Virus record (IMG/VR): IMGVR_UViG_3300031997_000030
Location: 1 to 36,779 of that record
DNA length: 36,779 nt
DNA from: a virus
Strand: one strand, 5' to 3'
Shown: positions 500-19,401 of the stretch, piece after piece
Layout of the letters: every line of letters begins with the position of its first letter
How positions within the stretch are numbered: position 1 is the stretch's first letter
Made by a program: the position numbers and the translations under genes
The notes under the pieces: model-generated
The model's input: only the letters and a program-made list of their open reading frames with translations
Databases searched by the model: none
Told to the model about the DNA's origin: nothing

Positions 500-500
500 T

Positions 501-704: not shown

Positions 705-1004
705 TTAGAACGAAACCTCTGAATTGATTTGTGTTATTGCCGTGTCTGCGTTTTGCCTCGCAGTTTGTTTCACAGCCGTAGATTCGTAAGCGATGACGGT
801 TTGCCTGATGATTTTCTTGACCATTCTCTGAGAGAACTGCGCCTTTGTTTCTCCGTTCTGTTTAGCTACGTCGTAATCGTATGTTCCACATATTCCATCG
901 ACAACCCTCGACACAAGGGGATCTGGTATGTCGATAATAATATCTGCCGACCAAGACGGAACAACACCCAGAACAATCAGAATAAATACAACCATGCGTT
1001 TCAT
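705..1004 (-). CDS. Exported protein with signal peptide (99 aa)
   Basis: The start is set by a strong AAGGAGGGACAG site before ATG at 1004, and the ATG overlaps the previous stop as ATGA. Residues 1-19 form a Sec signal peptide: KR, then a long hydrophobic core, then SWSA as likely cleavage site. The mature part has two cysteine-free helices and an Ala/Thr/Gln-rich C-terminus (QTARQNADTAITQ). No lipobox is present, so it is not an o-spanin lipoprotein. Similar short proteins occur near tail genes of other phages. The role is unknown. It lies between the fibre and lysis genes. Confidence 0.75.
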   Translation of the reverse strand: MKRMVVFILIVLGVVPSWSADIIIDIPDPLVSRVVDGICGTYDYDVAKQNGETKAQFSQRMVKKIIRQTVIAYESTAVKQTARQNADTAITQINSEVSF

Positions 1005-1306
1005 CTGTCCCTCCTTCGTAGACCTTTTATAAATTCCTCTTGGTTCCTGATGATGATATCGAGCTTCGCGTTCACCACACTCAATGCCATATCGTGAGCA
1101 ATGATCTTCGGTTTCCATTCGGTGTCAAATTTTAATTGTGCCGTATTGACATCTTGAATCTGATCCATCCATTTCGAGTGGGCGCGGATCGCTTTTACAC
1201 CGAACATTAAAATCCCAATAAGCATCGTGAGCGTGAACCCGCTCATTATCCAGTCCTGCATCCGTCGGATCGGCCATTTGGAGCGATGATGTTCGTGGTC
1301 GTTCAT
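1001..1306 (-). CDS. Membrane protein with coiled-coil tail (101 aa)
   Basis: A basic N-terminus is followed by a single transmembrane segment at about residues 19-38 (MSGFTLTMLIGILMFGVKAI) and then a charged, probably helical stretch to the end. This N-in, C-out topology resembles inner-membrane spanins or XhlA-like lysis accessory proteins. No partner lipoprotein gene is visible next to it, so spanin identity is only a guess. It is coupled by ATGA overlaps to both neighbours and lies just upstream of the lysis group. Confidence 0.7.
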   Translation of the reverse strand: MNDHEHHRSKWPIRRMQDWIMSGFTLTMLIGILMFGVKAIRAHSKWMDQIQDVNTAQLKFDTEWKPKIIAHDMALSVVNAKLDIIIRNQEEFIKGLRRRDR

Positions 1307-2088
1307 TGCGCTATCAGTATTCTCCTTCGAGTTACGCTTGTAACAGGGGCGATCTCATCCAAAGCAATCATGCTCGAAGCCCGATCTGAACTTGCGCTCA
1401 TCGTAGGATCAGACGTTTCGGTGGTAGCGGTAGCGATGATAAATTCCGCCGCGACTCCCATGCTGGTTGCCGCCGTTCCGGTCGATCCGGTCGAACTTGT
1501 AAAAACGGAGAACCCGCCGCTCGGCGTACTGATCGAGGCATTGGTTGTTTCACTCGCGATGGCCCGGACCCATAGATGCCCCGCGTCCGATAGTCCCCCG
1601 AGAGTCAAAGCCCCGGCGTCCCCCGTCACATCTTCCTTCTGTTCCGTCCCAACCGAAGAAACCGTATTCCCTGCGGTGATCGTGAACTCCCAACAAGAGA
1701 GTCCGTGAGCTGTACGGGAAGCACTCATGTCGACCGCTACCGTGACGCCAGAATTCTGTTGACCCTCCGCTTTCAGATAATAAATACCGACCACGGCCCC
1801 CGCCGCCGTAGTCCCATTGTCGTATTCGTTTTCACCGACGGAGATCATCGTTTCCGTTCCATACGTCACACCCACGATATCGTCAGTGTCGGTTCCGTTT
1901 CCATCGTTATCGGAAGCAATCGCACAAACCGCCACGTTCCCGGCCTCTAGCGTAGCGGTCGTGGTCCAATTCACGGGGTCAGCCGCCGTGATGTTGGCTT
2001 TTGCAACCAAAGACCCTACACTCGTCCACGCCGCGTAGTGAGGTGTCGCCGCCAGGCAAATCGAAAGGATGATGGCGAGACGTTTCAT
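1303..2088 (-). CDS. Exported beta-rich protein (261 aa)
   Basis: The first 19 residues are a clear signal peptide (KR, hydrophobic core, cleavage around HYA-A). The mature protein is rich in Thr, Ser, Ala, Gly and Val with few charged residues, as in beta-sandwich or beta-helix virion proteins. A short basic tail (TRRRILIAQ) ends it. It lies immediately downstream of the giant fibre with an ATGA overlap, where a fibre accessory or chaperone would be expected. I do not recognise a family. The signal peptide is odd for a virion component, which should be made in the cytoplasm. Confidence 0.75.
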   Translation of the reverse strand: MKRLAIILSICLAATPHYAAWTSVGSLVAKANITAADPVNWTTTATLEAGNVAVCAIASDNDGNGTDTDDIVGVTYGTETMISVGENEYDNGTTAAGAVVGIYYLKAEGQQNSGVTVAVDMSASRTAHGLSCWEFTITAGNTVSSVGTEQKEDVTGDAGALTLGGLSDAGHLWVRAIASETTNASISTPSGGFSVFTSSTGSTGTAATSMGVAAEFIIATATTETSDPTMSASSDRASSMIALDEIAPVTSVTRRRILIAQ

Positions 2089-5000
2089 TCCCGGTTCTTC
2101 GTGTAATAGACCGTAATCGTGACGTATTGAACGGTTCCTGCTTCTGCCGTACTATCAGTGTCAAAGACAAGGTACGCTCCAGCGGCGATCTCTGCGTTTG
2201 CGAAGGATGCATATGTCGATCCTGTCCAGGTCGCCGATGAATTCGGAAGCGTGAACACATCAGTCCCCGCACTATTCAAGGCCCCTTTCGGACGTTCCTC
2301 CAAGCCGAACGTCAGGGTCGAAGTTGCCACCGAATAGGTCGCCGCTTCGATTTGGGTGATCGTGATCGCCATATCCTTCGGTGCTTGCCATATCGGAATG
2401 GTGTTATTGTTCCATCCCCCGGTTTCGGTTCCGATGGTGACGGTGAACTGGTCGACAGGATGAGCGTAAACCTTGGCCGAGGTTCCATCGTTTATGACGA
2501 GCGTATTGTCTGTCGTATCAAACGCTACCGCGCCGACCTGATCCGCTTTTGCGTTCGCCGACTGTGGAATGACAAGTTGCCCCGTCACGATAGTGGCCGA
2601 TGTTTCGATGATTCCGCGATGGTAAACGGTTGTTCCTGCCGACAAGTAGGAATTGCTTGCTACCTGGACGCCACCCGCGAAAGTGATTGAAGATCCAGAA
2701 ACTCCGACAGTACTGCTCCAGCCAAGAGGACGCGGTGCGCTATCGGAAGTCTGAATCAGAAGTTTTCCGGTATTGGAGCTGGTCGCCCACATATCATGCG
2801 TCCATGATCCCGTAATGGCATCCGGGGCAACCAGCCCGACATAGCTACCGTTCGAGGCCGCGAATCGAAGCGAGGTCTGCTTCGCGGTATCTTTTGACGT
2901 AAGCGTTAGATTCGGACCTTCCGTGGAATCCCATCCTTGCATCGTGGCGAAATCTTCGAAAGTATTGTCCGCCAGGTTTCGGTGGGCAAGTTTCAGAACG
3001 TCGCCCTGCACGCTCATCTCGTACTTTCCGAATCCTTTCGCAGAATCCGTATCCGTTTCGACGAATTCGATATTCGGATTCGGAGCGTCTATACGGATAT
3101 CCCCGTTGGAGTTTGTGTCCGTTCGTTTGATCCGAAGGAAGTATCCGAGGTAGTCGTGGTTCTCACTCTTGAGATAAAGCATCGTTGTATCGTCTGCGGT
3201 TGTCTGCGCCGACGAGTCGTAGATTACAACGAAATGGCCGGAACTCTTCGACATATCAAATAGAACTCCCCCATCATTATTGTCGGATGCCCCCAATACG
3301 CCAACGGGGCGGGCGACGATGGCCCGCGAAGAAACAAAAACCTTGCTCCCGGTGATCGTTTGGGTGTCCGCCAGAACCATATCCCCACCACCAGGCGCAC
3401 CCGTAGAATCCGCAGAACATACGGGAAGTCCATCGGTCCCGATGGCGCTCACTTTATCGGTCCCTCCGCATGTCAGGGATTTGATACCACCCAGAGCCGC
3501 CGCCGCCGGATTCGGGAGTTGCGCCGCCGGGATCGTTCCCATCGTGGCCGTGGCAAGCGATACCTGATAAGGCAATGTCCCAACGGTTCCCGTCGTTAAG
3601 CTGATATTCCATAGGTCCTGCATGGCCCCCGTCGATAAAGAAATTCGATAGGGTAGAACCCCGGTCACTCCGGTCGAAAGAGCTACTTGATATCCCAGCG
3701 TCCCAACGGTCCCGGTCGAAAGCCCGATCTTCCACAAATTCTCCATGGCTCCCGTGGCTAGAGATATCTTGTAGGGAAGGACACCCGTCACGCCGGTCCC
3801 GAGCGCCACCTGGTAGGGAAGCGTATTGATTACACCCGTAGAAAGACTGACCTTTCGATTCTGTAGCTCTGAAAGGATCGTCCCAGTCGCGAGGGATACC
3901 GCCAACCCCGACGGCAAATCTTCCATGGTTCCCGTCGCCAGGCTGATCTTCCAGATGTTCTGCATCGCTCCTGTTGCCAGGGATACTTGGTAAGGCAATA
4001 CCCCGGTTACACCCGTCGAAAGGGCGACCTGATAGCCAATCAATCCCGACATACAACTTGTGTATTCGATGTTCCCGGAGTCGTCCGTCTTGATGCACGA
4101 AAGCGAACCAGGGTATGCGGAAGGGTAGGTATATTTGAGCCCGTTTATGGTGATGTTGTCTCCAGTCACGGCCAGCGTAGAAGTCCTGATCCCCTGCGTA
4201 GCCGTGAAACTGGATTGAACGGTAAGACTCCGGGTGATCGTGTCGCCCATCGTCCCGGTATCTACGTGAATCTTCCATAAATTCTGCATAGCCGATGTTG
4301 CAAGCGAAAGTTTGTACCCCAAAGAATCCAAACTCAAAGTTATCGAAGATCCACTGACGACTCCTGAAAACTGATTGGGGTTAAACATTGCGTCGGATGT
4401 CGGGCTGGAACGAACGGGTCCGGCAGTGATGGCGAGAGAAGACGCGCCTCCACTCCCCGTATTATCAGTCGATGGTTCCCAATAGGACGAACCGTTGTTC
4501 CATTTCAATACCTGACCATCGGAGGCTGGCACGTTGCGAACCAACTGGCTTCCCGAAAGGGTCATGGAACTCGTAAATACTGCCGTAGACGAAACAACGC
4601 CAAGTGCAAATGTCCCGCTGGACTGAAAATGAATTGGTTGGTTTACAACAAAAAGTCGGTCGTTCGGTATATAACTGATAACTCCGTCTCGGGACACTCC
4701 GGTTGTGGATCGGAATTGAAGATAATGCTTGCGGGTATCGCGCCCACCTTTGATATCCAATCCAAAAGCATTGTTTGAATTGGTTTGCCCCTGCATCGAC
4801 CATCCATAGGATGTAGAACCCTCAAAGGTTGGATTAGAATCAAGTGTAATATTTTCATGCACACTAGAAATATTGGAATCAGCTTTTAACCGGATGGCCT
4901 GATCGTATGCCGAAGCATCGAAGTCTGTGATTTCCGATAAATAAACATTCGACAAATTGAGAAATTGATAGGCTGTCGGAGCGCCAGCAGGGTCATAATA

Positions 5001-7997
5001 AAACTCAAGGCTTGTGTCGTCTGTCGTGATAATGCCGTTAGACATATACAAATAACCGTTCACGGTGGCATCCCCGGTAAGCAATCCTCCGCCTCCCGTT
5101 ATCGTCATACTTGTTACGGAAGAATTAAATGCGGTAGCTCCAATAGTGCTTGTGGTTAGACCATACCCAGCAGTAAGCGTTTTAGTCGAAACGTGAGATC
5201 CCAGATCGTCTTTTCCTCCGGATACTGTAGATCCACCAACAACTGCCGTGGTACTGATTGTTCCATCCGCCCAAACCACCATGCTCGATAATCGGACCGC
5301 GTAAATTGTTGCACTCGATACGGTCATGGAACTCATAAGAACCATGACCGAATTAGAACCTTCCCCGCCGATTTTGGCGACGTTGCTGGATGTCGCTACC
5401 GCGCCGTACCCAATGGCAATGGATTTGTTGATCGAATTGCTTCCCGCTGTAGCCCCAGACCCGACAAAGGTATTGCTTGACCCCAGAGTAAGAACCGATC
5501 CTGCCTGATACCCAATTGAGGTATTGTCTGATGCTCCGGAACCCGAATAGCAGGAAGTGTGTCCAACGCAGGTATTGTTGAGTCCGGTCGTTAACCTATT
5601 CGCGGAATCGACACCCATTACGGTATTGTTCACTCCGATGACAGTGTTCGCTCCCATTGCCGAATCACCAACAGCCGTATTCGCCGTGGCTCCAGCCATG
5701 GTCGCTAAGGTGCCTCTCCCTATTCCTGTATTATTGTTCGCCGTCGTTCCGACGGAAGCGCAAGCACCAGAACCAAGACAACTATTCGATCCAGCAGATC
5801 CAGAATTTCCGGAGTTATACCCAACGTAGGTATTGTCGTAGGTGCTTGCTCCCATCCCGGAATGTGCGCCAGAACCCATCACCGTATTACGTTGCGCCGA
5901 CGCATTCCATCCAACACCTCTTCCGAGTACGGTGTTCCAATTCGTTCCCCTCGCAAATACCGTTCCATCCTGAGTGATCGATCCACCCTTCATATTGATT
6001 GTCGAGACTTCGACGATTTGATCGACGAACGTCATGGAGGACGTATGCGTCTTTGGGGCCGCGATGGTCTGGTTCCCGGAAACCGTCACGACCATCGAGG
6101 ATATTTCAATGTAAGCAGTTGAATCCCCGACGAGCGTCACGTTGAATGCTCCCGGTGAAAAGGCGATGTTGGCCGTAGGGCTTGAAACCTTTGTCGCCCC
6201 TTCCCAAACAGACAATGTTGATCCTCCTCCACCAACACCCCCGGTATCGTCCGTTTGCCACTCTAAGTTGACGAATCCGTTCGAGTCGATATTCCGTATG
6301 CCGAGAACATTGTCCACGGATCCAGTCGATGACGGGAGACGATATTTCTGAGTGTGGGTTATTGTCGGAGATGATTGAAATTGGACATACTGATTATTGG
6401 TGGTATCCCAATAACGATACGGTTGTCCGCCCAATATTCCGTCAGAATTTTCTGCGCTGTCTGGCCAAATTCCGTGGTATCCAGCATCAACGCCATCGGA
6501 TCGTCTGTAACGAATAGACCATGGCGGAAGAACCGTATTGCCTCCGTAAGTAACTCCATTCTGTTCCATCACTTCCTGTCCGGCATAAGAAGCTCCGCTG
6601 TACCAAATAATCGGAGCATTTCCAGACGTACCAACCGTTCTCAGAACGAACGAACTGGCAACAACAGAAAATGACGAAGTTATAGTTTGAGGCTGGCTAA
6701 AGGTTTGATTCGTGTTCGTGTAGGCAACCGTAGAAGCTAAAGCGAGAGTAACTCCTCCAGATGTACCTCCGCCAGTTAACCCCGTACCACCGAAAACTCC
6801 CGTTATACTCCCTGCTCCACCACCACCCGCGACAGAAGTAGTGCTAATTGTTCCATCGGCCCAAACGACCATACTAGAAACGGTTACTTTCGTCGCCGTA
6901 ACAGATCCGATGACGGTCATGGAACTATTGGAAATTACGGTATTTCCGGTCGCTGGCTGTAAACGGATAGAACCACCGGAGGGGTTCGTATTCAATATTC
7001 GTATCTCAGAACCTTGCAATCCGATGGAGGCATTGGCATCGACAATGTTGTAGGTGCTTGCGGTTACGTTGGCGACGGCGTTCACGGAAAATGCGGGTCC
7101 ACCATTACGGGAAGCCCTGATTAAAGTGGCACTCCCTCCCGTCCCGGTTGAGATGTCCAGGAACCCCGTTCCCGGCCAGCTACCGATAACAATAGAAGAT
7201 GAGACAGTCACCGATCTTGCCGTGATGGTTGAGATATTCGCCCATCCTGCCGTGGCGGTTGAGATATAGAGTGTCAGGAGCGTTCCGGAAGACGCATTGA
7301 TCCATTCGATATTCGCCGTTGAGATAGTAACCGCGTCCCCCAGGGTAATCGTGGCGGTCCCCCCGCCCACAAGAGAGGCATTGAAATCGGTACTGTCGAA
7401 ATTGAATATCTGGGTTGGGCTTGAGATTTTGACGGTCCCCTCGAAAACAGCAATTCCAGATCCACCCCCACCGGCTCCACAAGCCGCGCCGGTAGTCGAA
7501 AGGCGTCCGCCCGTAGCGGTTTGTACGCATTCCCCGGAGGCCAGAGTATCTATGACAAGACCTTTCGAGTAGGCCACCCCGTTCGTAGATACGGCGAAGT
7601 GGTAAATCGCACTGTTGGTGGTGACAAAAAGCGAGTAGGTGTTGGCGTTCGTCGTTATGATGTCCGACCGCGCCAGAAAAGTAGACAAACCGTTGGCAAC
7701 CAAGCGACTCTGACCCGTATAGGCAGGGGTGTCAATCAATACTTGGGTCGGTGTCATGGTCGAAATAGTCAAGGCTCCGGAGAATACAAGAGGTCCAGAA
7801 AAGGTCTGAGTATTGGTCGAGGTCAGGATAGCGACCGAGGAATCAATGATGTCGAAGTCTCCACGAATCTTGGTTCCCCATCCCGTAGATCCGTCTTCCG
7901 GCTTAGTAAGGCCCATTCGCGTCGTATAGGTATCTGCCGCATATCCGACAGTACCCAATAAGAGAAACAACGCTGAAAACAGTAGTTTTCTCATCAT
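2085..7997 (-). CDS. Giant tail fibre / adhesin-like protein with signal peptide (1970 aa)
   Basis: This is probably the receptor-binding fibre. Residues 1-20 form a signal peptide (MRKLLFSALFLLLG core, cleavage near GYA-AD). Next comes LTKPEDGSTGWGTKIRGDFD (about 30-49), a segment I recognise from the start of phage fibres. The body is low-charge and Ser/Thr/Gly-rich. Residues about 690-870 contain NTxVG/NTxIG repeats like the beta-roll heads of YadA-type trimeric adhesins. Residues about 1310-1490 contain repeats of the form VSLATG or VALSTG. A segment SSMVVWADGTISTT occurs twice (about 370 and 905). The C-terminal part looks like a compact beta domain. A GGAG site precedes ATGATG, which overlaps the glycosyltransferase stop. 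No intramolecular chaperone (peptidase S74) motif was evident to me. Confidence 0.85.
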   Translation of the reverse strand: MMRKLLFSALFLLLGTVGYAADTYTTRMGLTKPEDGSTGWGTKIRGDFDIIDSSVAILTSTNTQTFSGPLVFSGALTISTMTPTQVLIDTPAYTGQSRLVANGLSTFLARSDIITTNANTYSLFVTTNSAIYHFAVSTNGVAYSKGLVIDTLASGECVQTATGGRLSTTGAACGAGGGGSGIAVFEGTVKISSPTQIFNFDSTDFNASLVGGGTATITLGDAVTISTANIEWINASSGTLLTLYISTATAGWANISTITARSVTVSSSIVIGSWPGTGFLDISTGTGGSATLIRASRNGGPAFSVNAVANVTASTYNIVDANASIGLQGSEIRILNTNPSGGSIRLQPATGNTVISNSSMTVIGSVTATKVTVSSMVVWADGTISTTSVAGGGGAGSITGVFGGTGLTGGGTSGGVTLALASTVAYTNTNQTFSQPQTITSSFSVVASSFVLRTVGTSGNAPIIWYSGASYAGQEVMEQNGVTYGGNTVLPPWSIRYRRSDGVDAGYHGIWPDSAENSDGILGGQPYRYWDTTNNQYVQFQSSPTITHTQKYRLPSSTGSVDNVLGIRNIDSNGFVNLEWQTDDTGGVGGGGSTLSVWEGATKVSSPTANIAFSPGAFNVTLVGDSTAYIEISSMVVTVSGNQTIAAPKTHTSSMTFVDQIVEVSTINMKGGSITQDGTVFARGTNWNTVLGRGVGWNASAQRNTVMGSGAHSGMGASTYDNTYVGYNSGNSGSAGSNSCLGSGACASVGTTANNNTGIGRGTLATMAGATANTAVGDSAMGANTVIGVNNTVMGVDSANRLTTGLNNTCVGHTSCYSGSGASDNTSIGYQAGSVLTLGSSNTFVGSGATAGSNSINKSIAIGYGAVATSSNVAKIGGEGSNSVMVLMSSMTVSSATIYAVRLSSMVVWADGTISTTAVVGGSTVSGGKDDLGSHVSTKTLTAGYGLTTSTIGATAFNSSVTSMTITGGGGLLTGDATVNGYLYMSNGIITTDDTSLEFYYDPAGAPTAYQFLNLSNVYLSEITDFDASAYDQAIRLKADSNISSVHENITLDSNPTFEGSTSYGWSMQGQTNSNNAFGLDIKGGRDTRKHYLQFRSTTGVSRDGVISYIPNDRLFVVNQPIHFQSSGTFALGVVSSTAVFTSSMTLSGSQLVRNVPASDGQVLKWNNGSSYWEPSTDNTGSGGASSLAITAGPVRSSPTSDAMFNPNQFSGVVSGSSITLSLDSLGYKLSLATSAMQNLWKIHVDTGTMGDTITRSLTVQSSFTATQGIRTSTLAVTGDNITINGLKYTYPSAYPGSLSCIKTDDSGNIEYTSCMSGLIGYQVALSTGVTGVLPYQVSLATGAMQNIWKISLATGTMEDLPSGLAVSLATGTILSELQNRKVSLSTGVINTLPYQVALGTGVTGVLPYKISLATGAMENLWKIGLSTGTVGTLGYQVALSTGVTGVLPYRISLSTGAMQDLWNISLTTGTVGTLPYQVSLATATMGTIPAAQLPNPAAAALGGIKSLTCGGTDKVSAIGTDGLPVCSADSTGAPGGGDMVLADTQTITGSKVFVSSRAIVARPVGVLGASDNNDGGVLFDMSKSSGHFVVIYDSSAQTTADDTTMLYLKSENHDYLGYFLRIKRTDTNSNGDIRIDAPNPNIEFVETDTDSAKGFGKYEMSVQGDVLKLAHRNLADNTFEDFATMQGWDSTEGPNLTLTSKDTAKQTSLRFAASNGSYVGLVAPDAITGSWTHDMWATSSNTGKLLIQTSDSAPRPLGWSSTVGVSGSSITFAGGVQVASNSYLSAGTTVYHRGIIETSATIVTGQLVIPQSANAKADQVGAVAFDTTDNTLVINDGTSAKVYAHPVDQFTVTIGTETGGWNNNTIPIWQAPKDMAITITQIEAATYSVATSTLTFGLEERPKGALNSAGTDVFTLPNSSATWTGSTYASFANAEIAAGAYLVFDTDSTAEAGTVQYVTITVYYTKNRE

Positions 7998-8692
7998 TCC
8001 ATCTCCGGAGATCCGATAACCTTCAAAACTTCATGGCCGCAGCGCACCGATGGGTCAAGCAGGGTCTTAATCCCAGCCTTCCGCAACTTAGAGAAAAAGA
8101 GCATTTCTTCGCTGGCATGATTGATCGTGTAATCGCCGCCGAGCGAATAGCAATTAAAGTACGCAAAGTATGGCATCTCCAGTTTCTTGAAAATATCGGA
8201 TCGGACCAACAGACATCCCATACCGGAAACGTCCACGGTCTGAATCGTGGTGAAGTCACGTAGCGGTTTGTAGAAAAGCGTCTGATTCCCGTCCTTATCG
8301 ATAAATCCCATTGACTCAATGGTTTTACGCTGGCTTTCGTGCTTCTCCCAAGTCGCATAATGACCTGGGACCGCAACGTGAGGATGTGCCTTTCTGAAAT
8401 ACAGCCCGGACACGACCGGGAATTCATCAGTAACATGCGCCAAGAGGCGCGGGATCGTGTCAACGGGCCAAATCTGGTCGGCGTCAGCGAAGAATATGTA
8501 GTCTGCCGCGTATTTGCTGGACAGGGCATTATCCACGGCTTCGTTTCGGTTTCGATCCAACGGGAATGTGTCGGAAATCATGGGATTAATATTGCATCCC
8601 TCAACGGGATGACGAACTAGGTCAAGAAAAGACCGGAATACGCGGGTTGAGATGGTCGGCCAGGTGCAGGGGAAATAGATGACGAGGTTCAT
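7994..8692 (-). CDS. GT-A fold glycosyltransferase (232 aa)
   Basis: This resembles family-2 type glycosyltransferases: an N-terminal nucleotide-sugar-binding half with a hydrophobic strand followed by the metal-binding DAD (FFADADQIWP, Asp70-Ala-Asp72). Further on come SGMGCLLVRSDIF, an acceptor-side segment, and SEEMLFF with a late HE, as in the catalytic base region of such enzymes. It would move a sugar from a nucleotide donor. It sits directly between the internal protein genes and the giant fibre with 4-base overlaps on both sides, so it is expressed with them. Either the fibre or coat is sugar-modified, or the host envelope is altered. The substrate cannot be told. Confidence 0.85.
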   Translation of the reverse strand: MNLVIYFPCTWPTISTRVFRSFLDLVRHPVEGCNINPMISDTFPLDRNRNEAVDNALSSKYAADYIFFADADQIWPVDTIPRLLAHVTDEFPVVSGLYFRKAHPHVAVPGHYATWEKHESQRKTIESMGFIDKDGNQTLFYKPLRDFTTIQTVDVSGMGCLLVRSDIFKKLEMPYFAYFNCYSLGGDYTINHASEEMLFFSKLRKAGIKTLLDPSVRCGHEVLKVIGSPEME

Positions 8693-11036: not shown

Positions 11037-11047
11037 AAAATACCTCG

Positions 11048-11497
11048 TCAGATGTAGTTTGAAATCAGATAATTTGACGGTTTACTCTTAAAATAAGGAC
11101 TGAGAGTAAGGGCCGTTTGGCCTATTCCACCAAGACTGGAAAGAAGCGTAGCCGCCAAATTGGGCGCAGCCTTAGACCCGATGGCTCTCGCTAAAGCCAA
11201 GGATTGCTGGTGTTCTTTCTCTAATTGGGCATTTTTCAACGAACCCGCCCCTACAACCCCATACAAAGCGTCGTAAATGCCCCTTCCGCCCATTGTTCCT
11301 GACCTGCTGAGTTCCTGACCTGCATATTCGCCTACGGGCCGTCCTGATGCCGTTGCTGACGTTGTAGCGCGATCCCCGATCCTGCCCAGGGATTCCTGTA
11401 GAGAAACCCTGCTCTTTTTCAGGATGTCTTTGTAGGGGTCCGTCTTCCCGACGCCGCTAAGATCAAATAGTTTGATATCTGCCGCTGTCATAGCCAT
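11048..11497 (-). CDS. Putative small internal virion protein (149 aa)
   Basis: ATG at 11497 follows a GAGGG site by seven bases. The protein is Ala/Gly/Ser-rich with amphipathic helices and a hydrophobic C-terminal region (LAATLLSSLGGIGQTALTL) that could insert into a membrane. It has no cysteine and no motif I recognise. It is flanked by two other proteins of similar style, suggesting a joint role in genome ejection or as minor capsid proteins. This is inferred only. Confidence 0.6.
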   Translation of the reverse strand: MAMTAADIKLFDLSGVGKTDPYKDILKKSRVSLQESLGRIGDRATTSATASGRPVGEYAGQELSRSGTMGGRGIYDALYGVVGAGSLKNAQLEKEHQQSLALARAIGSKAAPNLAATLLSSLGGIGQTALTLSPYFKSKPSNYLISNYI

Positions 11498-11507
11498 ATT
11501 TTTACCC

Positions 11508-11978
11508 TCACCCTTGACTTCCGGCGTATCCGCCTAATCCTGCCCCTAAAACTCCTCCAATGACAATTCCTGGCAGACCAAACGGAGCCCCAGCCATCGC
11601 TCCAGACGCACCACCGCCCAGGACACCACTAGCAATACCGGAAGACCCACCCTTCTTGGACATCTTTCCGATCAATTTCGCTAGTTCTAGTCTGCGAGCG
11701 TTCTCTAGATCACCCATGTAATCTTGAGTAGGAATTTGCCCCAACGCCGTAGCCAAATCGCTCTCATTTGATGCCAAATCCGTTAATTCGCCCGCGTTTA
11801 TGTCGCCCATTGTGTAATTGGCTACCCCGCTACCCAGACGACCACTGGCGGCCTGTTCACCGACGGCCTTCCGACGCGCTTTTGCGTACTGATTCTGGAT
11901 GGTCATACCCGCCGTGTCTGCGGTCTGGCCAAGAACGTCTTCCAGGGTAGATGGTGCGGTATCAGCGATAAGAGCCAT
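11508..11978 (-). CDS. Putative small internal virion protein, Gly-rich C-terminus (156 aa)
   Basis: The N-terminal 100 residues are helical and charged. The last 50 are an almost uncharged Gly/Ala/Ile/Leu region with GxxxG-like spacing (GLPGIVIGGVLGAGLGGYAG), typical of glycine-zipper membrane-inserting segments. A GAGGTGATCT site precedes the ATG. Position and composition suggest an ejection-type protein that could form part of a channel through the host envelope. I do not recognise a named family. Confidence 0.6.
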   Translation of the reverse strand: MALIADTAPSTLEDVLGQTADTAGMTIQNQYAKARRKAVGEQAASGRLGSGVANYTMGDINAGELTDLASNESDLATALGQIPTQDYMGDLENARRLELAKLIGKMSKKGGSSGIASGVLGGGASGAMAGAPFGLPGIVIGGVLGAGLGGYAGSQG

Positions 11979-11986
11979 AGATCACC

Positions 11987-12223
11987 TCAAGAGAAAGCCG
12001 CGTATTTTAGCGTTCCGTTCACTTTCGTATATAAACGATGCAGCGTTTTGTCATAAACAAATTCTAACTCCCCCACATCATTTGCTATAGGGGGACTCGT
12101 TCTGCTCGGACGTAATTTCTTGGTCGCAAAATTCCTCAATACAGCGTTCAAATCGGTCCATACTCCCGGTTCGTCACTGTAAGCTCCGGACTTCAAGACA
12201 GGCTGTTTTGGATTTACGCTCAT
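11987..12223 (-). CDS. Small virion-region protein (78 aa)
   Basis: A short ORF coupled by a 4-base overlap to the nozzle gene. Its C-terminus (ELEFVYDKTLHRLYTKVNGT) resembles the beta-hairpin motif found at the start of many phage fibre or baseplate-type proteins, in which a label-like strand pair reads 'data/parameters/value'. It may be a small tail accessory. The N-terminal half is unremarkable and polar. Confidence 0.65.
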   Translation of the reverse strand: MSVNPKQPVLKSGAYSDEPGVWTDLNAVLRNFATKKLRPSRTSPPIANDVGELEFVYDKTLHRLYTKVNGTLKYAAFS

Positions 12224-14958
12224 ACAATATCCCCGCGAGAAGTCGTAAGCCGGTAATATAACCTTAACTCGTCCACAGAAAATGGGCGATCAATACCATT
12301 GGTCCGAACTCTGAATCTGACGGATGGAGCCATAAAATTGATATTCAAACGCTTCGTCATCCCGTCAGATTGGCCAGATTCCTGCGTCAAATCAACTTCA
12401 ATGTCCGTATAGGTCAATCCGCCATCAGTTGAATACCCAACAGAAAGATCGTATTCACCGGATCTCTCGCAGGACAACATCAATTCCTTACCTTTCATAA
12501 TGAATCCCGACTGTCCGAAATCGGCAGTTTCGTAGTAGGAATCAATCGTGGAACCATTCTTGGAATATCCATATTCGAGTCTATAAATTGACCCGTCCTC
12601 ACTCGACCCTCCAATGAATGATTCACCGAAACGACAGAAAGACAGGAGTTTGAAATCCTTCTTGTGCCAGGGGCTCTCAAAAGTAGATTTACCAAGAATC
12701 AAGACAATATCGTTCTCGGTTGCCCCCAAAGTGGAGGCCGCCAACCAATAGCGATTGCCCCATATAAACGATCCCACATTCTGCAAATTGGTAGCCCCAG
12801 AGGTAGAAGACAAAACCCAGTTCACGGTGAAAGCGTTTACGACGGGAACCGTCTGATTCTGCGCGTCCAGATACATTTCAATTTTGATTTGTATATACGT
12901 ATTCGTAATCGCCGTGTTTGGGATGGCCCCCGGAACGATGGCTGTCCAAGGTTGCGCCGATACCGCCCCGTTCGTGGAAGCTGCCCGGAAGTAGGAAGTG
13001 ATAATCGTCCCCGACCTATTACCGTCGAGCTGATATGCTCCCCATTGAAGTAGATTCCCACCTGTATTTTTGATCGGAGAAATGTATTGCGTCCCAACAT
13101 ACACCTTGTCGATGACAGGGGAATATTGCCCGTTCGATGAATAGAGATAGACTCCCCATCGAAGGTATCGCTTGAGTACAGACCCTATGGCCCCCTCATT
13201 GGCGACATTTACCTCCGCATCCCAATTTGTTCCATCTGCGGAAGACTGGGTGAAAAACTGGTAGGTCTGCGAATTCGTTGTCATAATGGCAACAAGATTA
13301 CCGTAAGAGGCAGGAGCCACCGATAGATCAAGCGTTTTGGAAATAAATTTACCATCTGGCTCATACCCTGCCTGATAGACATAAATCCCCTGGACCGTAG
13401 TCTGAACTCGCAAATAGGTCAAAACAAAAAGTCTAACGTAACGAGCTGTTACGGTTGAAAAATTTAACGTAAAATCTGTGGCTGTGAATTCTCCCCAATA
13501 ACCGGCCCCTCCGCTACCCCCATTATCAGCAAGGACTGTTGCTACGGGGGTATAGGTCGAATCATCAGAAGAAACTTCGATCCTGGCCCAATCAATCAAT
13601 AGATTTTCGGGCTGGTTGTATTTAGCGACGGCCAAACCTTTCACTACAACGCGACCGACTGAATAGACAGATCCAAGGTCTATAACAAAATCTGTTGATA
13701 TCCCTGCTCCCAAAGTTCGATAGCCCGCGATAGTCGAGTCATTTCCATCGGTGACATAAGACTTAGACCCGACGATCGCGCACTGATACCCTCGAATATC
13801 GGCATATTTACCCGCCGAAAGAAGCGTTCCGGGATTTCCGGAGGTCACAAGATCAAGCTGTAGATTTCCCGGATTGGTGGTCCCCGTTGTGTCATCGTGA
13901 GTCCCCGCCTCGAAATTGGCCTGGGTATCGTCTGCGGGTGAAAGAGTTAAGGCATCATTGGCTGTTGAAAGATTGGCAGGAACCGTGCCAGTCGCCAGAT
14001 CTGCCGTTTCTGACATATTCCAGAATTCCGTTGTCAGAAGCGGTTGCTGTAATTTTGAGAACGCAAATACCCCCGGTTCTGGGTTTGCCGGATCTACGAT
14101 GTCGGAGATTCGTTTCGCTTCTTCGCCATCAAACACATAAAGACCATCAACGCCGATAAAATGAACCAGATTGTCTTTGATCTGTATGGATTCTTGGAAG
14201 CGCGTACCCGTTGACGAGCGCGTTTTGACCCGCGTGTAGGTGTATTCGTCATATCCGACGACCCTCCAGACCGAATACTGCTTGGAGCAATAGAGATATC
14301 CGCGATACATGAAAATACCTGTACCCTGGTCAGCATCTCCCTCGGAAATTTGCAGTTCATTATCGGCGGGCCAAGCATCTGCGTCATCGGGCGTAATTTC
14401 CGTACCCGTCGAATCTGCCAGAGCCGAAAACCGAAGCGACGATAAATCACCGCTGATTCCGTACATCCAGATCCTCTCATCATGATAGGCGATGTATCGT
14501 CCCGGCGGTACATCCGGAGTTCCCGCCGTTCCGTCCAAGGTCGCCAAAGCACTTCCGTTCCATGTCATCACAGAATCCGAACCATTGGTGAGCCATACTT
14601 TGTCACGGATTACGGCTCCTCTCAGTTGGAAAAACGACGATAGGCCAGTTTTGATCTGAGTAAAAGTAACGTAATCCGTCGTCCACCATACGGTTGTATT
14701 ATCGGAGCAAATCAGTTGGGAAGATCCGTCCGAGGTCTTGTAAAATTCTAAAAGTAGCGTCGGGGGGTTTCCGGACGGAAGTTGTCCTAATTTGGTGTAC
14801 CCCAGAGAGGTAACAACTGATCCCGGCTTCTCGTCCATCCAAACATTGAGATTATCGGGGGACTGACCCTCGGGGAGTTTCGATGGAGAGGCCGCCGTAT
14901 TCAGCGTCCCCCACTTATCGACCACAATCTCTTTGGCATCTTCCAGGATAGCTGTCAT
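12220..14958 (-). CDS. Tail nozzle / hub protein with discoidin-like insert (912 aa)
   Basis: This large beta-rich protein lies directly after the adaptor genes, where short-tailed phages encode the nozzle (tail tubular protein B or equivalent). Recurrent WxxDG, YLYxxKQYSVWRV and LYVFDGEEAKRIS segments in the first 300 residues match the blades of such propeller-like nozzle proteins. Residues about 385-530 look like an F5/8 type C (discoidin) domain: YRTLGAG, FVIDLGS, VGRVVVKGL, IEVSSDDSTY and ARYVRLFV are its usual landmarks. Discoidin domains bind carbohydrates. The C-terminal region is again beta-sandwich-like. It is linked by ATGA overlaps on both sides. Confidence 0.75.
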   Translation of the reverse strand: MTAILEDAKEIVVDKWGTLNTAASPSKLPEGQSPDNLNVWMDEKPGSVVTSLGYTKLGQLPSGNPPTLLLEFYKTSDGSSQLICSDNTTVWWTTDYVTFTQIKTGLSSFFQLRGAVIRDKVWLTNGSDSVMTWNGSALATLDGTAGTPDVPPGRYIAYHDERIWMYGISGDLSSLRFSALADSTGTEITPDDADAWPADNELQISEGDADQGTGIFMYRGYLYCSKQYSVWRVVGYDEYTYTRVKTRSSTGTRFQESIQIKDNLVHFIGVDGLYVFDGEEAKRISDIVDPANPEPGVFAFSKLQQPLLTTEFWNMSETADLATGTVPANLSTANDALTLSPADDTQANFEAGTHDDTTGTTNPGNLQLDLVTSGNPGTLLSAGKYADIRGYQCAIVGSKSYVTDGNDSTIAGYRTLGAGISTDFVIDLGSVYSVGRVVVKGLAVAKYNQPENLLIDWARIEVSSDDSTYTPVATVLADNGGSGGAGYWGEFTATDFTLNFSTVTARYVRLFVLTYLRVQTTVQGIYVYQAGYEPDGKFISKTLDLSVAPASYGNLVAIMTTNSQTYQFFTQSSADGTNWDAEVNVANEGAIGSVLKRYLRWGVYLYSSNGQYSPVIDKVYVGTQYISPIKNTGGNLLQWGAYQLDGNRSGTIITSYFRAASTNGAVSAQPWTAIVPGAIPNTAITNTYIQIKIEMYLDAQNQTVPVVNAFTVNWVLSSTSGATNLQNVGSFIWGNRYWLAASTLGATENDIVLILGKSTFESPWHKKDFKLLSFCRFGESFIGGSSEDGSIYRLEYGYSKNGSTIDSYYETADFGQSGFIMKGKELMLSCERSGEYDLSVGYSTDGGLTYTDIEVDLTQESGQSDGMTKRLNINFMAPSVRFRVRTNGIDRPFSVDELRLYYRLTTSRGDIV

Positions 14959-15236
14959 GGCGTATCCACGTTCGCCCAGGGGGTATTGGCGTTGACAGCG
15001 AATGTCAGATCGTATCCCCCGAAACCGCCCTCTCCGAAACCACCTTCTCCAAAACCTACGGATTGAACAAGAATGTACCCACCGTCTCCCACATCGAAAA
15101 ACGTAGTCTCCGCCTCCGACCCAAAAGAAGAAAACAAAACGGACGAATCTACCGCATCAGAGAAATCCGACGTAATAGATTCCGACTGGTTCTTAAAAGT
15201 CACACCCGTTTCTGTGATATTCGAGAAATCGCTCAT
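14955..15236 (-). CDS. Small head-tail region protein with FGEGG repeats (93 aa)
   Basis: ATG at 15236 overlaps the adaptor stop as TGATG, which fixes the start. The upstream extension of the frame is a shadow. The first 50 residues are Ser/Thr/acidic. The second half contains tandem GFGEGGFGEGGFGG, a glycine-rich repeat seen in small proteins of podovirus tail operons, and ends NTPWANVDTP. Probably a minor connector protein. I cannot assign a precise role. Confidence 0.65.
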   Translation of the reverse strand: MSDFSNITETGVTFKNQSESITSDFSDAVDSSVLFSSFGSEAETTFFDVGDGGYILVQSVGFGEGGFGEGGFGGYDLTFAVNANTPWANVDTP

Positions 15237-15874
15237 CAGTATCCTTGACCCGACCACCTGAACTGTAGGAGGCTATCGGAGAATCGCTGGACCTTCGACA
15301 ACAACCTCCGCTTGTGATCCTCATAGAGTTTCAAATTCAGGTCGGACCGCTTGGAATTCCCCATCTTATGCTCGCATAGAAAAGCCGCATAGAAGGGAAG
15401 ACAATCGTTAAACGTCACATGAAGGTCCGGAGCCGTGGTGTCGTCACTGAGATCGGGTGGAACTTTAACGTATTGAATCTGAATCGTTTTCCCGGAATTG
15501 GCAGCGTCCGGAGGAGGCCACAAGCCAATCTTAGCGTTGTCTGCCCGATAAGCGTAATTCGGCGCAGCAGATTCCGCGTTTTGCCAATCCTGGCGGAATT
15601 TCGCCAGATCCGTGCGGTCCACTATCGTCATAACGAAATCGTTGAAATAAATATCCGACAACGAAACGAAATCGGTCGGGAGGGTGTAAACAGCCTGGTC
15701 CTCCACGGAGGTCGCCTCCGCCGTCTGTAGAGGCCATTCTGTTTCAGTCCCAAGAATACGAATCGCCTGGTTCAAATAGTCGTAAATTTCGTCGTCCGTA
15801 AAATGAGAATTAGCCGCCGTTTCTTCGTCTATGATCCGACGGGTCGATTCCAGTAAAGTCAGCCGTGTCGCCAT
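15236..15874 (-). CDS. Head-tail adaptor protein (212 aa)
   Basis: The N-terminal helical region (DDEIYDYLNQAIRIL), the WP segment and YTLPTDFVSLSDIYFN followed by IGLWPPPD are the usual landmarks of the small adaptor ('tail tubular protein A'-like) proteins that bind below the portal ring in short-tailed phages. A C-terminal helical arm is rich in Lys/Arg. Length is close to the roughly 200 residues usual for the group. It precedes the nozzle gene, as expected for stacking portal, adaptor, nozzle. Confidence 0.8.
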   Translation of the reverse strand: MATRLTLLESTRRIIDEETAANSHFTDDEIYDYLNQAIRILGTETEWPLQTAEATSVEDQAVYTLPTDFVSLSDIYFNDFVMTIVDRTDLAKFRQDWQNAESAAPNYAYRADNAKIGLWPPPDAANSGKTIQIQYVKVPPDLSDDTTAPDLHVTFNDCLPFYAAFLCEHKMGNSKRSDLNLKLYEDHKRRLLSKVQRFSDSLLQFRWSGQGY

Positions 15875-15877
15875 AGT

Positions 15878-16135
15878 TTACCCCTTGGGGAAAAAATACG
15901 CCTTTGGAGGCTCATAGTAAAAAAGCCTCTTTTCCGTCGGATGCCATCGTCTCTTTCGGATGTCCTGGACATGGGCCGTCGATCCCCCAGGATCGCTCGG
16001 GTTGGCGGTCCCCATTTCTTTGAAATAAGGCGCGAGCGGAGGGAGACGGTTCACACAATGTCGGCAAAGCCAGAGTTCCCCGTCCATGTATAGGGTTCCG
16101 GCCAAATCACCGCATGTTGAGCAATATCGTTCCAT
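15878..16135 (-). CDS. Zinc-ribbon protein of the head region (85 aa)
   Basis: Two CxxC knuckles, CSTC (residues 5-8) and CRHC (24-27), form a zinc ribbon. A long tail contains PSDPGG, RKRRWHPTEKRLFYY and PPKAYFFPKG. Proteins of this kind are common between coat and adaptor genes of podoviruses, with unknown role. A GGGGAGGATTC site lies directly downstream of a strong hairpin (16145-16176). Confidence 0.7.
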   Translation of the reverse strand: MERYCSTCGDLAGTLYMDGELWLCRHCVNRLPPLAPYFKEMGTANPSDPGGSTAHVQDIRKRRWHPTEKRLFYYEPPKAYFFPKG

Positions 16136-16144
16136 GAATCCTCC

Positions 16145-16176
16145 CCTCCCCGGAAGCGGTGAAGCCTCCGGGGAGG
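16145..16176 (-). terminator. 10-bp hairpin downstream of coat/head genes
   Basis: Perfect 10-bp arms (CCTCCCCGGA at 16145-16154 and TCCGGGGAGG at 16167-16176) with a 12-base loop lie in the 49-base gap after the exported head gene. On the transcribed strand no U-run follows. The stem instead ends directly against the ribosome site of the zinc-ribbon gene. It may be a partial terminator, an mRNA-stabilising stem protecting the abundant coat transcript, or a translation control element. Confidence 0.6.
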
Positions 16177-16184
16177 TTTAGACA

Positions 16185-16604
16185 CTAATAACCCTGGGTA
16201 ACTCGTCCTCTCTCCCAGATGAGAGTTGCCGCACCTGTCGCCGCTTGAGGAGCCACGATGATTCCGTTCGTAAACTGCAACGGAGGATCAAGGTAGTAAC
16301 TCGTATTGGCCGACGATGAGGTGTACCACACTTTCAATTTGAAAGTGTGGTTTGTGGCCGTCAGCGTATTCGGAGTAACGGTCGACGACGCATCGAACAC
16401 AGTCAAATACTCGGTTGGCGAAGCACCGGACGAAAGAAGGACGGCATACAGTGCCGCCGGTCCAATCGTAATGGTGGATACAGTCGCCGTGTAATTAACC
16501 GCAGTATAAGCCTTTGCTCCACGCGCCGCTCCCGCCGCTTCCGAAGAAGACGACAGAAACAGCATCCCCGCAACAAGAAGAAACGCGCCAATCAATTTAT
16601 TCAT
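16185..16604 (-). CDS. Exported head-associated protein, possible decoration (139 aa)
   Basis: ATG at 16604 has an AAGGAGG site. Residues 1-23 are a signal peptide (NK, hydrophobic core, SSSSEA-A). The mature part is beta-rich, with ALYAVLLSSGASP, LTVFDASS and a late TLIWERG strand. The pattern recalls the paralogous pair at 18407-19108. It sits directly downstream of the major coat gene, where decoration proteins are usually encoded. Export would be inconsistent with cytoplasmic capsid assembly, so its true location needs proof. The gene contains a 25-base palindrome. Confidence 0.7.
   Translation of the reverse strand: MNKLIGAFLLVAGMLFLSSSSEAAGAARGAKAYTAVNYTATVSTITIGPAALYAVLLSSGASPTEYLTVFDASSTVTPNTLTATNHTFKLKVWYTSSSANTSYYLDPPLQFTNGIIVAPQAATGAATLIWERGRVTQGY
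16326..16350. repeat. Perfect 25-base palindrome inside a coding region
   Basis: Arms 16326-16337 (CCACACTTTCAA) and 16339-16350 (TTGAAAGTGTGG) are perfect reverse complements around a single central T. The site lies within the exported head gene, encoding part of a TFKLKVWY strand. In RNA it would form a hairpin of about 10-11 bp with a tiny loop. Confidence 0.9.
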
Positions 16605-16618
16605 GGTTGGTTTCCTCC

Positions 16619-17485
16619 TTACGCGGCGGTCTTGACCCACACAGCATGGTTATCCCGAAGGGTAGCCACACCGTATAGGGCAGAACCGGCGTATGGGGTG
16701 CTGTAACGAACCCGAGAGAACTTCTCCAACTTGAAGTCTTTCTGCATAACGACGCCGAAAGCCTCCCGATAGAAAAGCACATTGTCGCGTTTCACCGCAG
16801 TTGTCGTAACCTGGGTCGAAACTTCGACAGGGGTTCCATACAGTCCCACTACGCGACCGCCTTCGACCTGTAAGCCCTTCGAGAAGCCGGTGGTATTGGC
16901 AAGCGTGAACTTGTCAATCCCGAGAATGTCCCCATGAGCAACAGGAGCCAAAACCCAGCACCGATCTTCCTTCGGAACATCCAGATCATCCAATTTTCTC
17001 TGAGCTTCGATGATGGACCCATCACCCAAAGCTCCAGAAGCATCCACGATATTAGTCGTTAAAGACACAACCAATGCCAACACATCGGCATCCGTTTGCT
17101 GACCAATAGCTTTACCGAAGGCTTCCGAGAATTCCGCTTCCCAATCCAGCACGGATTGAAAGTCCACGATATCCACCAGATCCGCCGAGACGTTCTTCCA
17201 TTTGTTAATGGTGATGGTCTTTGCGGTTGGCGATATTTCGCTGTTCGTGAACGATCCGTCCGTCGTGGAAATGTCCGTCGGCGTCAGGGAAGGGAACACC
17301 TGGAACGTCACGCGATCTCCGACCTTGTTGATTTGGCCTTTGATCAGCGCATCCCCTTCAACGCCATTCAGACAATGCTTCCACACCTTTGAGGCAGCAT
17401 ATCGAGCCTTGAGCGCGCGCTGTCTAAGCCACGCTGGTACGGCTGTCGATATGCCATTTGAGTCTAGTCCTGTTTCATTAGCCAT
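16619..17485 (-). CDS. Major capsid (coat) protein, HK97 fold (288 aa)
   Basis: A typical coat protein of the P22/N4-like podovirus type. It has an N-terminal helical arm, VGDRVTFQVFPSL (E-loop/P-domain strand region), TITINKWKNVSADLVDI, AFGKAIGQQTDADVLALV (long spine helix) and a C-terminal A-domain with RVVGLYGTPVEVS, NVLFYREAFGVVMQKD and GVATLRDNHAVWVK. It lies directly downstream of the scaffold. The site AAGGA precedes the ATG. Length is normal for this class. There is no signal peptide, unlike several neighbours. Confidence 0.92.
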   Translation of the reverse strand: MANETGLDSNGISTAVPAWLRQRALKARYAASKVWKHCLNGVEGDALIKGQINKVGDRVTFQVFPSLTPTDISTTDGSFTNSEISPTAKTITINKWKNVSADLVDIVDFQSVLDWEAEFSEAFGKAIGQQTDADVLALVVSLTTNIVDASGALGDGSIIEAQRKLDDLDVPKEDRCWVLAPVAHGDILGIDKFTLANTTGFSKGLQVEGGRVVGLYGTPVEVSTQVTTTAVKRDNVLFYREAFGVVMQKDFKLEKFSRVRYSTPYAGSALYGVATLRDNHAVWVKTAA

Positions 17486-17505
17486 GACTGGCTATCCTTT
17501 TTGGT

Positions 17506-18363
17506 TTATTTTTTCACCCGACCCTCGCGATACGCTGACCGGATTTCGCGGTCCAAGGCTTCCGATTGCTTCTTCATGTCATCGGTCCAAGTTCTTGGAT
17601 CATTCGGAAATTTGCCGACCTCTTTGATGATTTCGGCTTCCGTCCATACCCGTTGCCCATTCAAGGATGGCGGTGCCCCGATAACCGGAGCCGCCTTCGC
17701 CTTTAGAACGCTTTTATCCGTTATGCCCTTCTGTTTTTGCCAGAGAAACAGGGCATATTCTGCACGTTCCATCGGTCGCATATTCTTCATGGCCGGGGTG
17801 GATTGGACGATTTCCGCTATGTCTTGTTCGTCATCGTCAGTCAGTCCTCGTTGAGTCTTGATGAATTTGGTGGCTTCTGTCGTTTCTTGCCGCCATTCGG
17901 AGGTTTCTTGATCCACGACTTGTCGCTCATTGAGCTGCGAAAGCAACCGCTTCTCAAACTGCGACAGGTGGGTTCCAATCTTTTCTTCGATTGTCTCCTC
18001 TGGGGCTTCCCAAAACGACTTGCCAGGCTTTCGATTGTCTCCCGATGATTTAAGGGACGCTTCGAGTTGATCCAGGCGGGTTTGCAAGTTCCCGACTATT
18101 TCTTCTCTCTGCGATCTTTCGTCGCGTAGGCGACCTCTCAGCTCGCGGATAGTATCGAGCTTGGAAGGGCCTCGGGTACGGGTTTGACGATCTGTTGCCG
18201 AACCACCTTCGGTAGACTCTTGCGAGCCACCGGCACGTTCCTGTCCGTCTTGCGACGATTCGGGGGCGACACTCCCCGTCTCCGTGGATACGTCGGAGGT
18301 TGTTTTTACGGTCGCACCGCCGGAATTGATCGGCGCGTCTACAGTTCCCACTAAGTCGCTCAC
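17506..18363 (-). CDS. Scaffolding protein (285 aa)
   Basis: The GTG start at 18363 has a strong AGGAGGT site. The N-terminal 65 residues are Ser/Thr/Gly/Gln-rich and disordered. Then come a charged coiled coil (about 68-105: IRELRGRLRDERSQREEI), a long helical middle part and a short basic C-terminus (SAYREGRVKK), the usual coat-binding end of scaffolds. It is the gene immediately before the coat gene, as expected. It would guide procapsid assembly and then be released. Confidence 0.85.
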   Translation of the reverse strand: MSDLVGTVDAPINSGGATVKTTSDVSTETGSVAPESSQDGQERAGGSQESTEGGSATDRQTRTRGPSKLDTIRELRGRLRDERSQREEIVGNLQTRLDQLEASLKSSGDNRKPGKSFWEAPEETIEEKIGTHLSQFEKRLLSQLNERQVVDQETSEWRQETTEATKFIKTQRGLTDDDEQDIAEIVQSTPAMKNMRPMERAEYALFLWQKQKGITDKSVLKAKAAPVIGAPPSLNGQRVWTEAEIIKEVGKFPNDPRTWTDDMKKQSEALDREIRSAYREGRVKK

Positions 18364-18381
18364 AGGGCGACCTCCTGATAA

Positions 18382-18396
18382 CGGGCCATTGGCCCG
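18382..18396 (-). terminator. 7-bp hairpin before the scaffold gene
   Basis: CGGGCCA and TGGCCCG are perfect arms around one base, in the 43-base gap between the exported four-cysteine gene and the scaffold. On the transcribed strand a short TTATC follows, then the scaffold ribosome site. It is probably an attenuator or RNA-processing stem rather than a full terminator. Confidence 0.45.
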
Positions 18397-18406
18397 GATT
18401 TTGCGT

Positions 18407-18751
18407 CTAGTAACATTGGTAGAGAATCGTCACGCTGGCAGCGTTTGTCTTTCGATAGCTCAATCCCTTCGGGAGAGCTACGTCATAATATTTGCATTGA
18501 TCCGCAACCAGCGTTGAAATTGGACCTAGAAATTGACTATCAGCAACGGTCCATGTCGAGTTATAAACCGTCATGGAAGCACTGGCGACGCCAAAAGAGG
18601 TGCAAATTCCATGGAGAATTCCTCTCTGAGTTCCCTCGCATAGCGGAACGAAATTATGAGTCGTCAGTGTATTGGTCGATCGCCAGATATCACCTGCTTT
18701 AACGAAAGAGGGCATGGCCAGAAGTAAGGAAAAAATCAATAGTCGTTTCAT
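18407..18751 (-). CDS. Exported four-cysteine protein, copy 2 (114 aa)
   Basis: Signal peptide at residues 1-19 (KRLL, hydrophobic core, VKA-G). The mature domain is about 95 residues, is a clear paralogue of the upstream gene and shares DIWRS, TQRGI(L/F)HG(I/V)CT, GPI(S/T)TLVADQCKYYDVA and the C-terminal IL(Y)xCY. Four cysteines are conserved in both copies (LC near the N-terminus, GxC, DQC, xCY), suggesting two disulfides formed after export. It lies between portal and scaffold genes. The role is unknown. Candidates are a host-surface or periplasmic exclusion factor, or a head decoration that somehow meets oxidising conditions. Confidence 0.75.
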   Translation of the reverse strand: MKRLLIFSLLLAMPSFVKAGDIWRSTNTLTTHNFVPLCEGTQRGILHGICTSFGVASASMTVYNSTWTVADSQFLGPISTLVADQCKYYDVALPKGLSYRKTNAASVTILYQCY

Positions 18752-18760
18752 CGGTTCACC

Positions 18761-19108
18761 TCAGTAACACTTGTAAAGAATTCCGACGACCGCCGCGTTG
18801 TTCTTGAAGAAATACATCCCGCTCGAAAAGGCTACGTCGTAGTATTTGCACTGATCGGCGACCAATGTCGTAATCGGACCTACGATATTGCCGCTGGTAA
18901 ATGTGGCACTCGACAGAATGGCGATGGAAGAACCGGCCACACCAAAGTTCGTACAGACACCATGGAAAATACCTCTTTGTGTATTTGAACAAAGAGTCTG
19001 CATAGTGGCCTGGGTCGTGATCGCGTTGCTGGACCTCCAGACATCGACCGCCATCGAGGACAGAGATGCCCCAAGTAAAAGTGCCATCGTTAAAATTATT
19101 TTCTTCAT
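18761..19108 (-). CDS. Exported four-cysteine protein, copy 1 (115 aa)
   Basis: Signal peptide at residues 1-20 (KKIILTMALLLGAS, cleavage near SMA-V). The mature part aligns over its whole length with the next gene, with all four cysteines kept, so the two arose by tandem duplication. The pattern of strands (SSNAITTQ, GVAGSSIAIL, GPITTLVADQCKYYDVAF, GILYKCY) suggests a small beta-sandwich. The start overlaps the stop of the preceding 98-residue gene as ATGA. I know no named family. Confidence 0.75.
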   Translation of the reverse strand: MKKIILTMALLLGASLSSMAVDVWRSSNAITTQATMQTLCSNTQRGIFHGVCTNFGVAGSSIAILSSATFTSGNIVGPITTLVADQCKYYDVAFSSGMYFFKNNAAVVGILYKCY

Positions 19109-19401
19109 CGCGTTTCTCCTCTGGCTTCGCTTAGTAGTTGTTCAATCTCGATGGGGGGTTGATCCTCCCGACCGTCTTTTTCCAAAAACGCCAATTCTGA
19201 TTCCAGCGTTAACATGGCCTGTTTGAACCCCTTCTCTATTCCCGCATAGTAACGCCAAGCCGACTCCGATCCTCTGGCCGCCGCCCGGTCACGATTTTCT
19301 TCTATCTTTGAAACCTTTTTGACCCATTCTTCCTGGAGAGCCCGATACGCGGGATTCTCAACTAGGGAGGCGAGTAGGGCGTAGTTATTCACTCGGCTCA
19401 T
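19105..19401 (-). CDS. Small helical protein next to the portal (98 aa)
   Basis: Almost entirely charged helix, with NYALLASLVENPAYRALQEE and a second coiled-coil-like stretch. It is coupled to the portal by an ATGA overlap. Small helical proteins at this spot occur in many podoviruses, but I cannot assign a role. Confidence 0.65.
   Translation of the reverse strand: MSRVNNYALLASLVENPAYRALQEEWVKKVSKIEENRDRAAARGSESAWRYYAGIEKGFKQAMLTLESELAFLEKDGREDQPPIEIEQLLSEARGETR

Follow-up and report, generated by a model that had tools for sequence, protein, structure and literature searches.

Signal peptides on the fibre and two small jelly-roll families of a tailed phage, and a possible assembly route through two compartments

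The 36,779-base IMG/VR virus record IMGVR_UViG_3300031997_000030, analysed over its whole length and hereafter called the window, carries on its minus strand the late operon of a tailed phage from an uncultured family of soil type. Genes follow in the order TerL, portal, a protein of 98 amino acids (aa; p98), A1, A2, scaffold, coat, B and the tail genes, then internal-type proteins, a glycosyltransferase, a giant fibre, protein C, a holin-like protein, protein D and an M15 endolysin. A preliminary description had claimed that six late proteins carry Sec signal peptides (SPs). All six open reading frames (ORFs), which head the following list, are present where it had placed them, on the minus strand, and each has an SP-like N-terminus. 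TM denotes a transmembrane segment.

18761-19108, minus strand: protein A1, encoded between portal/p98 and scaffold; SP (19049-19108), then a 95-aa modelled jelly-roll with 4 Cys
18407-18751, minus strand: protein A2, a paralogue of A1 (52%); SP (18695-18751), then a modelled jelly-roll with 4 Cys
16185-16604, minus strand: protein B, whose gene comes next after that of the coat; SP (16536-16604), then a modelled 8-strand jelly-roll with 0 Cys
2085-7997, minus strand: giant fibre, 1970 aa; SP (7938-7997), then an N-terminal domain of tail-attachment type (ADTYTT..TGWG)
1303-2088, minus strand: protein C, 261 aa; probable SP (2032-2088); 2 mature Cys
705-1004, minus strand: protein D (99 aa), for which no relative was found; weak SP (945-1004), then a mature part with a single Cys
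16619-17485, minus strand: major coat protein; no SP; contrast set
17506-18363, minus strand: scaffold, judged from position and composition; no SP; contrast set
19398-21158, minus strand: portal/head-tail connector; no SP; contrast set
21155-22552, minus strand: terminase large subunit (TerL); no SP; contrast set
12220-14958, minus strand: large tail/virion protein that has an F5/8 type C (discoidin) domain and lacks an SP; contrast set
1001-1306, minus strand: holin-like one-TM protein, so called from position alone; no family match
164-622, minus strand: peptidase M15 endolysin, without SP

The six N-termini are of unequal quality. Cleavage sites were placed by eye according to the -3/-1 rule, and the signals of A1 (MKKIILTMALLLGASLSSMA, mature start VDVW), A2 (MKRLLIFSLLLAMPSFVKA, mature start GDIW), B (MNKLIGAFLLVAGMLFLSSSSEA, mature start AGAA) and the fibre (MMRKLLFSALFLLLGTVGYA, mature start ADTYTT) are clear. 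That of C (MKRLAIILSICLAATPHYA, mature start AWTS) is fair, with a less canonical cleavage site, while that of D (MKRMVVFILIVLGVVPSWSA, mature start DIII) is the weakest of the six. The starts of these ORFs are coupled to the upstream gene or have a purine-rich site before them; the ATG of B lies at 16604 and that of D at 1004. Reading of the SP-bearing N-termini revealed no consistent lipobox Cys at +1 or twin-arginine motif.

To place the window among its relatives, 12 related IMG/VR records were gathered through portal and coat searches. One is nearly identical to the window, and coat identity to the window is 62-78% in the others. The portal gave no match among cultured phages. A contig scan for the host with the coat alignment returned only a match of 30% within a gene of Chthoniobacteraceae that lacks phage context, and this was rejected as chance. 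SPs were scored with an n-h-c rule that had been calibrated against a set of 79 E. coli proteins and was run on every syntenic family, any start within the first 45 codons being allowed for all families alike.

Conservation in related phages, named as a check in the preliminary description, was found at the A, B and fibre positions. The rule was positive in 13/13 A proteins and 11/12 B proteins, the twelfth being a start-codon artefact. All ten fibres carry an SP by reading, with one of nine distinct fibre signals missing the strict rule. In all records, A, B and the fibre show a basic n-region, a hydrophobic core, small residues at -3 and -1 and no downstream TM. The selectivity first noticed in the window also holds, TerL, portal, scaffold and coat being SP-negative in nearly every relative. 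Sixteen other late or structural families yielded 2 SP calls in about 160 proteins; both (the Gly-rich p149 of record L011 and a glycosyltransferase of L008) were dismissed as false on inspection. With the first 30 residues shuffled, the rule passed a fraction of 0.16-0.26, against 30/31 for the natural sequences. Between records, the mature parts of A and B are 22-72% identical and their signals 20-80% (20-25% in the most distant pairs). Because both diverge so strongly, it is the signal character that persists. On these sequence grounds, predicted export of the A, B and fibre-type proteins is well supported.

The preliminary description had overlooked further SP-bearing proteins downstream of the fibre in relatives. 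In those whose sequence beyond the fibre was read and is intact, one to three additional large SP-bearing proteins separate the fibre from the lysis genes. Protein C showed no detectable homology to the 256-aa SP-bearing proteins of relatives. A 90-aa protein without SP, starting M-A-(D/N)-x-Y-x-S-V-S-V, follows the fibre amid SP-bearing neighbours in two records (L037:1697-1969 and L038, oriented 1275-1553). Immediately before the fibre, a glycosyltransferase-like gene is found at 7994-8692 of the window, and similar genes occupy this place in relatives L008, L010 and L011.

Exported proteins of diderm bacteria favour even Cys numbers owing to disulfides, an accepted mark of export (PMC7678975). 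We therefore counted Cys in the mature SP-bearing proteins, including those of two cultured Tunturi phages described below: 44 have even counts, 5 odd counts and 3 no Cys. Among non-SP structural controls, 38 of 105 non-zero counts are even (44/49 versus 38/105, nominal Fisher p ~1e-10, uncorrected for kinship). Since the tallies cover related sequences, the counts are not independent. Several changes are nonetheless separate events, namely the varied Cys pairs of B, the paired changes of A and the unrelated Tunturi proteins. Mature A has 4 Cys in ten sequences and 2 in one, where two were lost together; in the A of one record the C-terminal Cys was lost and another gained. Mature B has 0 or 2 Cys, with pairs at five different sets of positions, both members present or neither. 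In three records, including the window, B has no Cys at all and retains its SP. The giant fibre of the window has 10 mature Cys, forming 5 local pairs. With the SP left on, the counts are 31 even and 19 odd, and its removal turns 17 even. That parity is even only after SP removal favours real export and real cleavage, and would be compatible, as indirect evidence, with folding in an oxidising compartment.

The place of the SP in the fibre was compared with the fibres of other phages. Past the predicted cut, the window fibre starts with ADTYTTRMGLTKPEDGSTGWG. The same N-terminal domain begins at Met, without SP, in phiM5, three Manatee Spring phages and Tunturi_4. Common to the window family and gp19 of Sinorhizobium phage phiM5, a podovirus fibre, is the domain motif ADT(Y/F)T..LTKPEVG..TWG, and a GenBank note places the phiM5 fibre in the particle proteome. 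The match of the fibre domain to phiM5 gp19 and others by tblastn and reading is weak (E 0.005-0.1), while motif and position agree. Whereas gp19 and the other homologues have a Met start and no SP, all ten fibres of the window family carry their own diverged SP set exactly ahead of this domain. As the SP sits exactly at the domain boundary, cleavage would restore an ordinary virion fibre N-terminus. A search of the open-access literature found no report of SPs on tailed-phage fibres. In the fibres of L025 and L026, a Cys pair within the N-terminal domain (V/A-C near the cut; N/E-CGWG), which other fibres lack, suggests an added disulfide. The window fibre (2085-7997) also contains many imperfect (V/I)SLATGTMxxLPYQ repeats, common to an SP-bearing 989-aa protein of L037 (1957-4926).

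For A and B, AlphaFold2 models built on 11-sequence alignments (pLDDT 83 and 81) are both 8-strand jelly-rolls. Structural matches, at a middling Z of 6.0-7.7, include cement and turret proteins of phages as well as CUB domains and the cores of nucleoplasmins. All relatives keep the genes of A and B in synteny with head genes, and gene position and modelled fold together suggest that A and B are candidate head ornaments (decoration or turret proteins). The fold that they have in common with phage cement and turret proteins shows no function. The Helicobacter phage KHP40 cement protein (7dou) and the HFTV1 turret protein (8qpg) have this general 8-strand fold, but nucleoplasmin and CUB fit too, and in the solved phage chains the alignment starts close to the first residue. 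Phage proteins of the A/B fold in BFVD are 86-100 residues long, with no room for an SP. Because hhalign did not join A and B, we do not take their shared fold as a sign of homology. Searches for cultured relatives of A gave none, and a viral scan with the A alignment gave nothing beyond the related records already gathered. Scans of A, B and the fibre against Pfam and PHROGs gave nothing useful. A 30% match of B to phage phikF77 was weak (E 0.8) and absent in a second search, and a match of D to DUF4230 fell under the cut-off; both were set aside.

Cultured phages show a like pattern. Tunturi_4 (PP885687; L050:40076-47324), an isolated Acidobacteriota phage reached through the fibre domain, has a tail-fibre module in which gp111, gp113 and gp114 bear SPs, with 12, 8 and 20 mature Cys. 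The GenBank start of gp111 (40433) omits an upstream in-frame start at 40076 that bears the SP, and from the sequence the true start is probably the upstream one. In Tunturi_2 (PP885685; L052:9754-22744), also an isolated Acidobacteriota phage and, like Tunturi_4, one with a Tunturiibacter host, gp12, gp13, gp14, gp16 and gp17 of the tail-fibre module carry SPs, with 20, 10, 20, 1 and 34 Cys. The other structural genes of both phages have no SP and about 0.5 Cys per 100 residues. No such SP block was found in the first 50 kb of Tunturi_3 or the first 50 kb of Tunturi_5, and the text of the Tunturi description paper does not mention SPs. Like the window, Tunturi_2 and Tunturi_4 thus have neighbouring fibre or structural genes with SPs and mostly even Cys counts; they are, however, of a different phage type, non-homologous at the levels tested, and their SPs are confined to the fibre module. 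Because these phages are cultured, the pattern can be tested directly.

The preliminary description had offered three readings: host-surface or periplasm proteins, acquisition of late virion parts outside the cytoplasm, and structural anchors. The second fits best, because cleavage regenerates the virion-fibre N-terminus of other phages. We propose that these virions would combine proteins of two origins. The cytoplasm would be the place of synthesis and assembly for the packaging proteins, the scaffold, coat and portal, the nozzle and the internal proteins. The long fibre, its companion proteins of receptor-binding type and the two small jelly-rolls would be exported through Sec with a cleavable SP, fold in the periplasm with disulfides and wait there. 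The holin would then open the inner membrane and let capsids reach the periplasmic pool. Docking of the mature fibre N-terminus to the tail, and of the jelly-rolls to the head, would precede or accompany rupture of the outer membrane. Holes made by the lambda holin average 340 nm (PMC10865782), large enough for capsids. As a whole, this model, including attachment to virions and its time and place, seems to us somewhat likelier to be right than wrong.

Several points weigh against it. The assignment of A and B to the virion draws solely on where their genes lie and on a common fold with middling Z values (6-9), and the model assumes that the gap from holin action to lysis is long enough for fibre docking. 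SP scoring used a home-made rule with a small false-positive rate, and cut sites were judged by eye. Five mature SP-bearing proteins have odd Cys counts; D is odd, weakly scored and unconserved. Disulfides might also arise in released virions that meet oxygen.

The host-surface or periplasm reading remains as a rival, since the same SP and Cys evidence for export applies to it. The proteins would then be exported but not part of the virion, with a late role such as masking receptors against superinfection or keeping progeny from sticking to debris. Exported proteins from phage late regions do exist, such as Lom and Bor of lambda and superinfection-exclusion factors. However, the fibre retains a virion-fibre N-terminal domain of phiM5 type right after the cut site, and A and B keep company with head genes. 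The relatives examined all have SPs on the fibre and on most of the large downstream proteins, which would leave few candidates for receptor binding on the virion. We regard this explanation as rather unlikely.

Hydrophobic N-termini could in principle stay uncleaved, tethering virion parts to the inner membrane or anchoring them within the virion, and the cleavage sites of C and D are non-canonical. Yet signals at 20-25% identity keep the n-h-c order and small -3/-1 residues, and the Cys counts would be 31 even and 19 odd with the SP kept, against 44 and 5 with it removed. Because Sec features outlast divergence and parity needs SP removal, this reading is disfavoured, and we hold it to be very improbable. 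Still less probable, in our view, is that export serves as a folding route only, the disulfide-rich fibre domains needing the periplasm and the material being shed or used by virions of other cells, with no ordered assembly; the fibre and the Tunturi proteins are indeed rich in Cys, in local pairs, but B keeps its SP in the three records where it is Cys-free. Hydrophobic N-termini due to chance, or misplaced start codons, for which the weakness of D and the false-positive rate of the rule might speak, are contradicted for A, B and the fibre by the conservation of three loci across divergent relatives, the near absence of SPs elsewhere in the same operons and the coupled or purine-preceded starts, and are scarcely credible.

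Precedents exist for parts of the proposed two-compartment route. In Inoviridae, pIII and pVIII have cleavable SPs, pass to the inner membrane or periplasm and then enter virions, as proposed for the window phage. Inoviruses, however, are extruded without lysis and have no icosahedral head, whereas the window phage is a tailed double-stranded DNA phage with SPs on its outer parts only and head genes without them. It encodes TerL, portal, coat and an M15 endolysin, and no extrusion genes were found among the proteins scanned. Lom and Bor of lambda and RI of T4 are likewise sent via Sec during infection; they are lysis or surface proteins, whereas the window has a whole set of virion-type parts. 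The T4 antiholin RI is reported to have a cleavable SP (PMC8385771).

We see roughly even chances that tailed phages can assemble in two compartments, heads from the cytoplasm meeting, at lysis, fibres and decorations that were exported through Sec and disulfide-bonded in the periplasm, and that two or more unrelated groups of phages do so, among them one infecting Acidobacteriota. Tailed phages are taught to be built wholly in the cytoplasm. If fibres and head ornaments were instead exported and added at lysis, the order of assembly, the origin of virion disulfides and the part played by the interval from holin action to lysis would need rethinking, and disulfide-stabilised receptor-binding proteins would be a natural feature of some phages.
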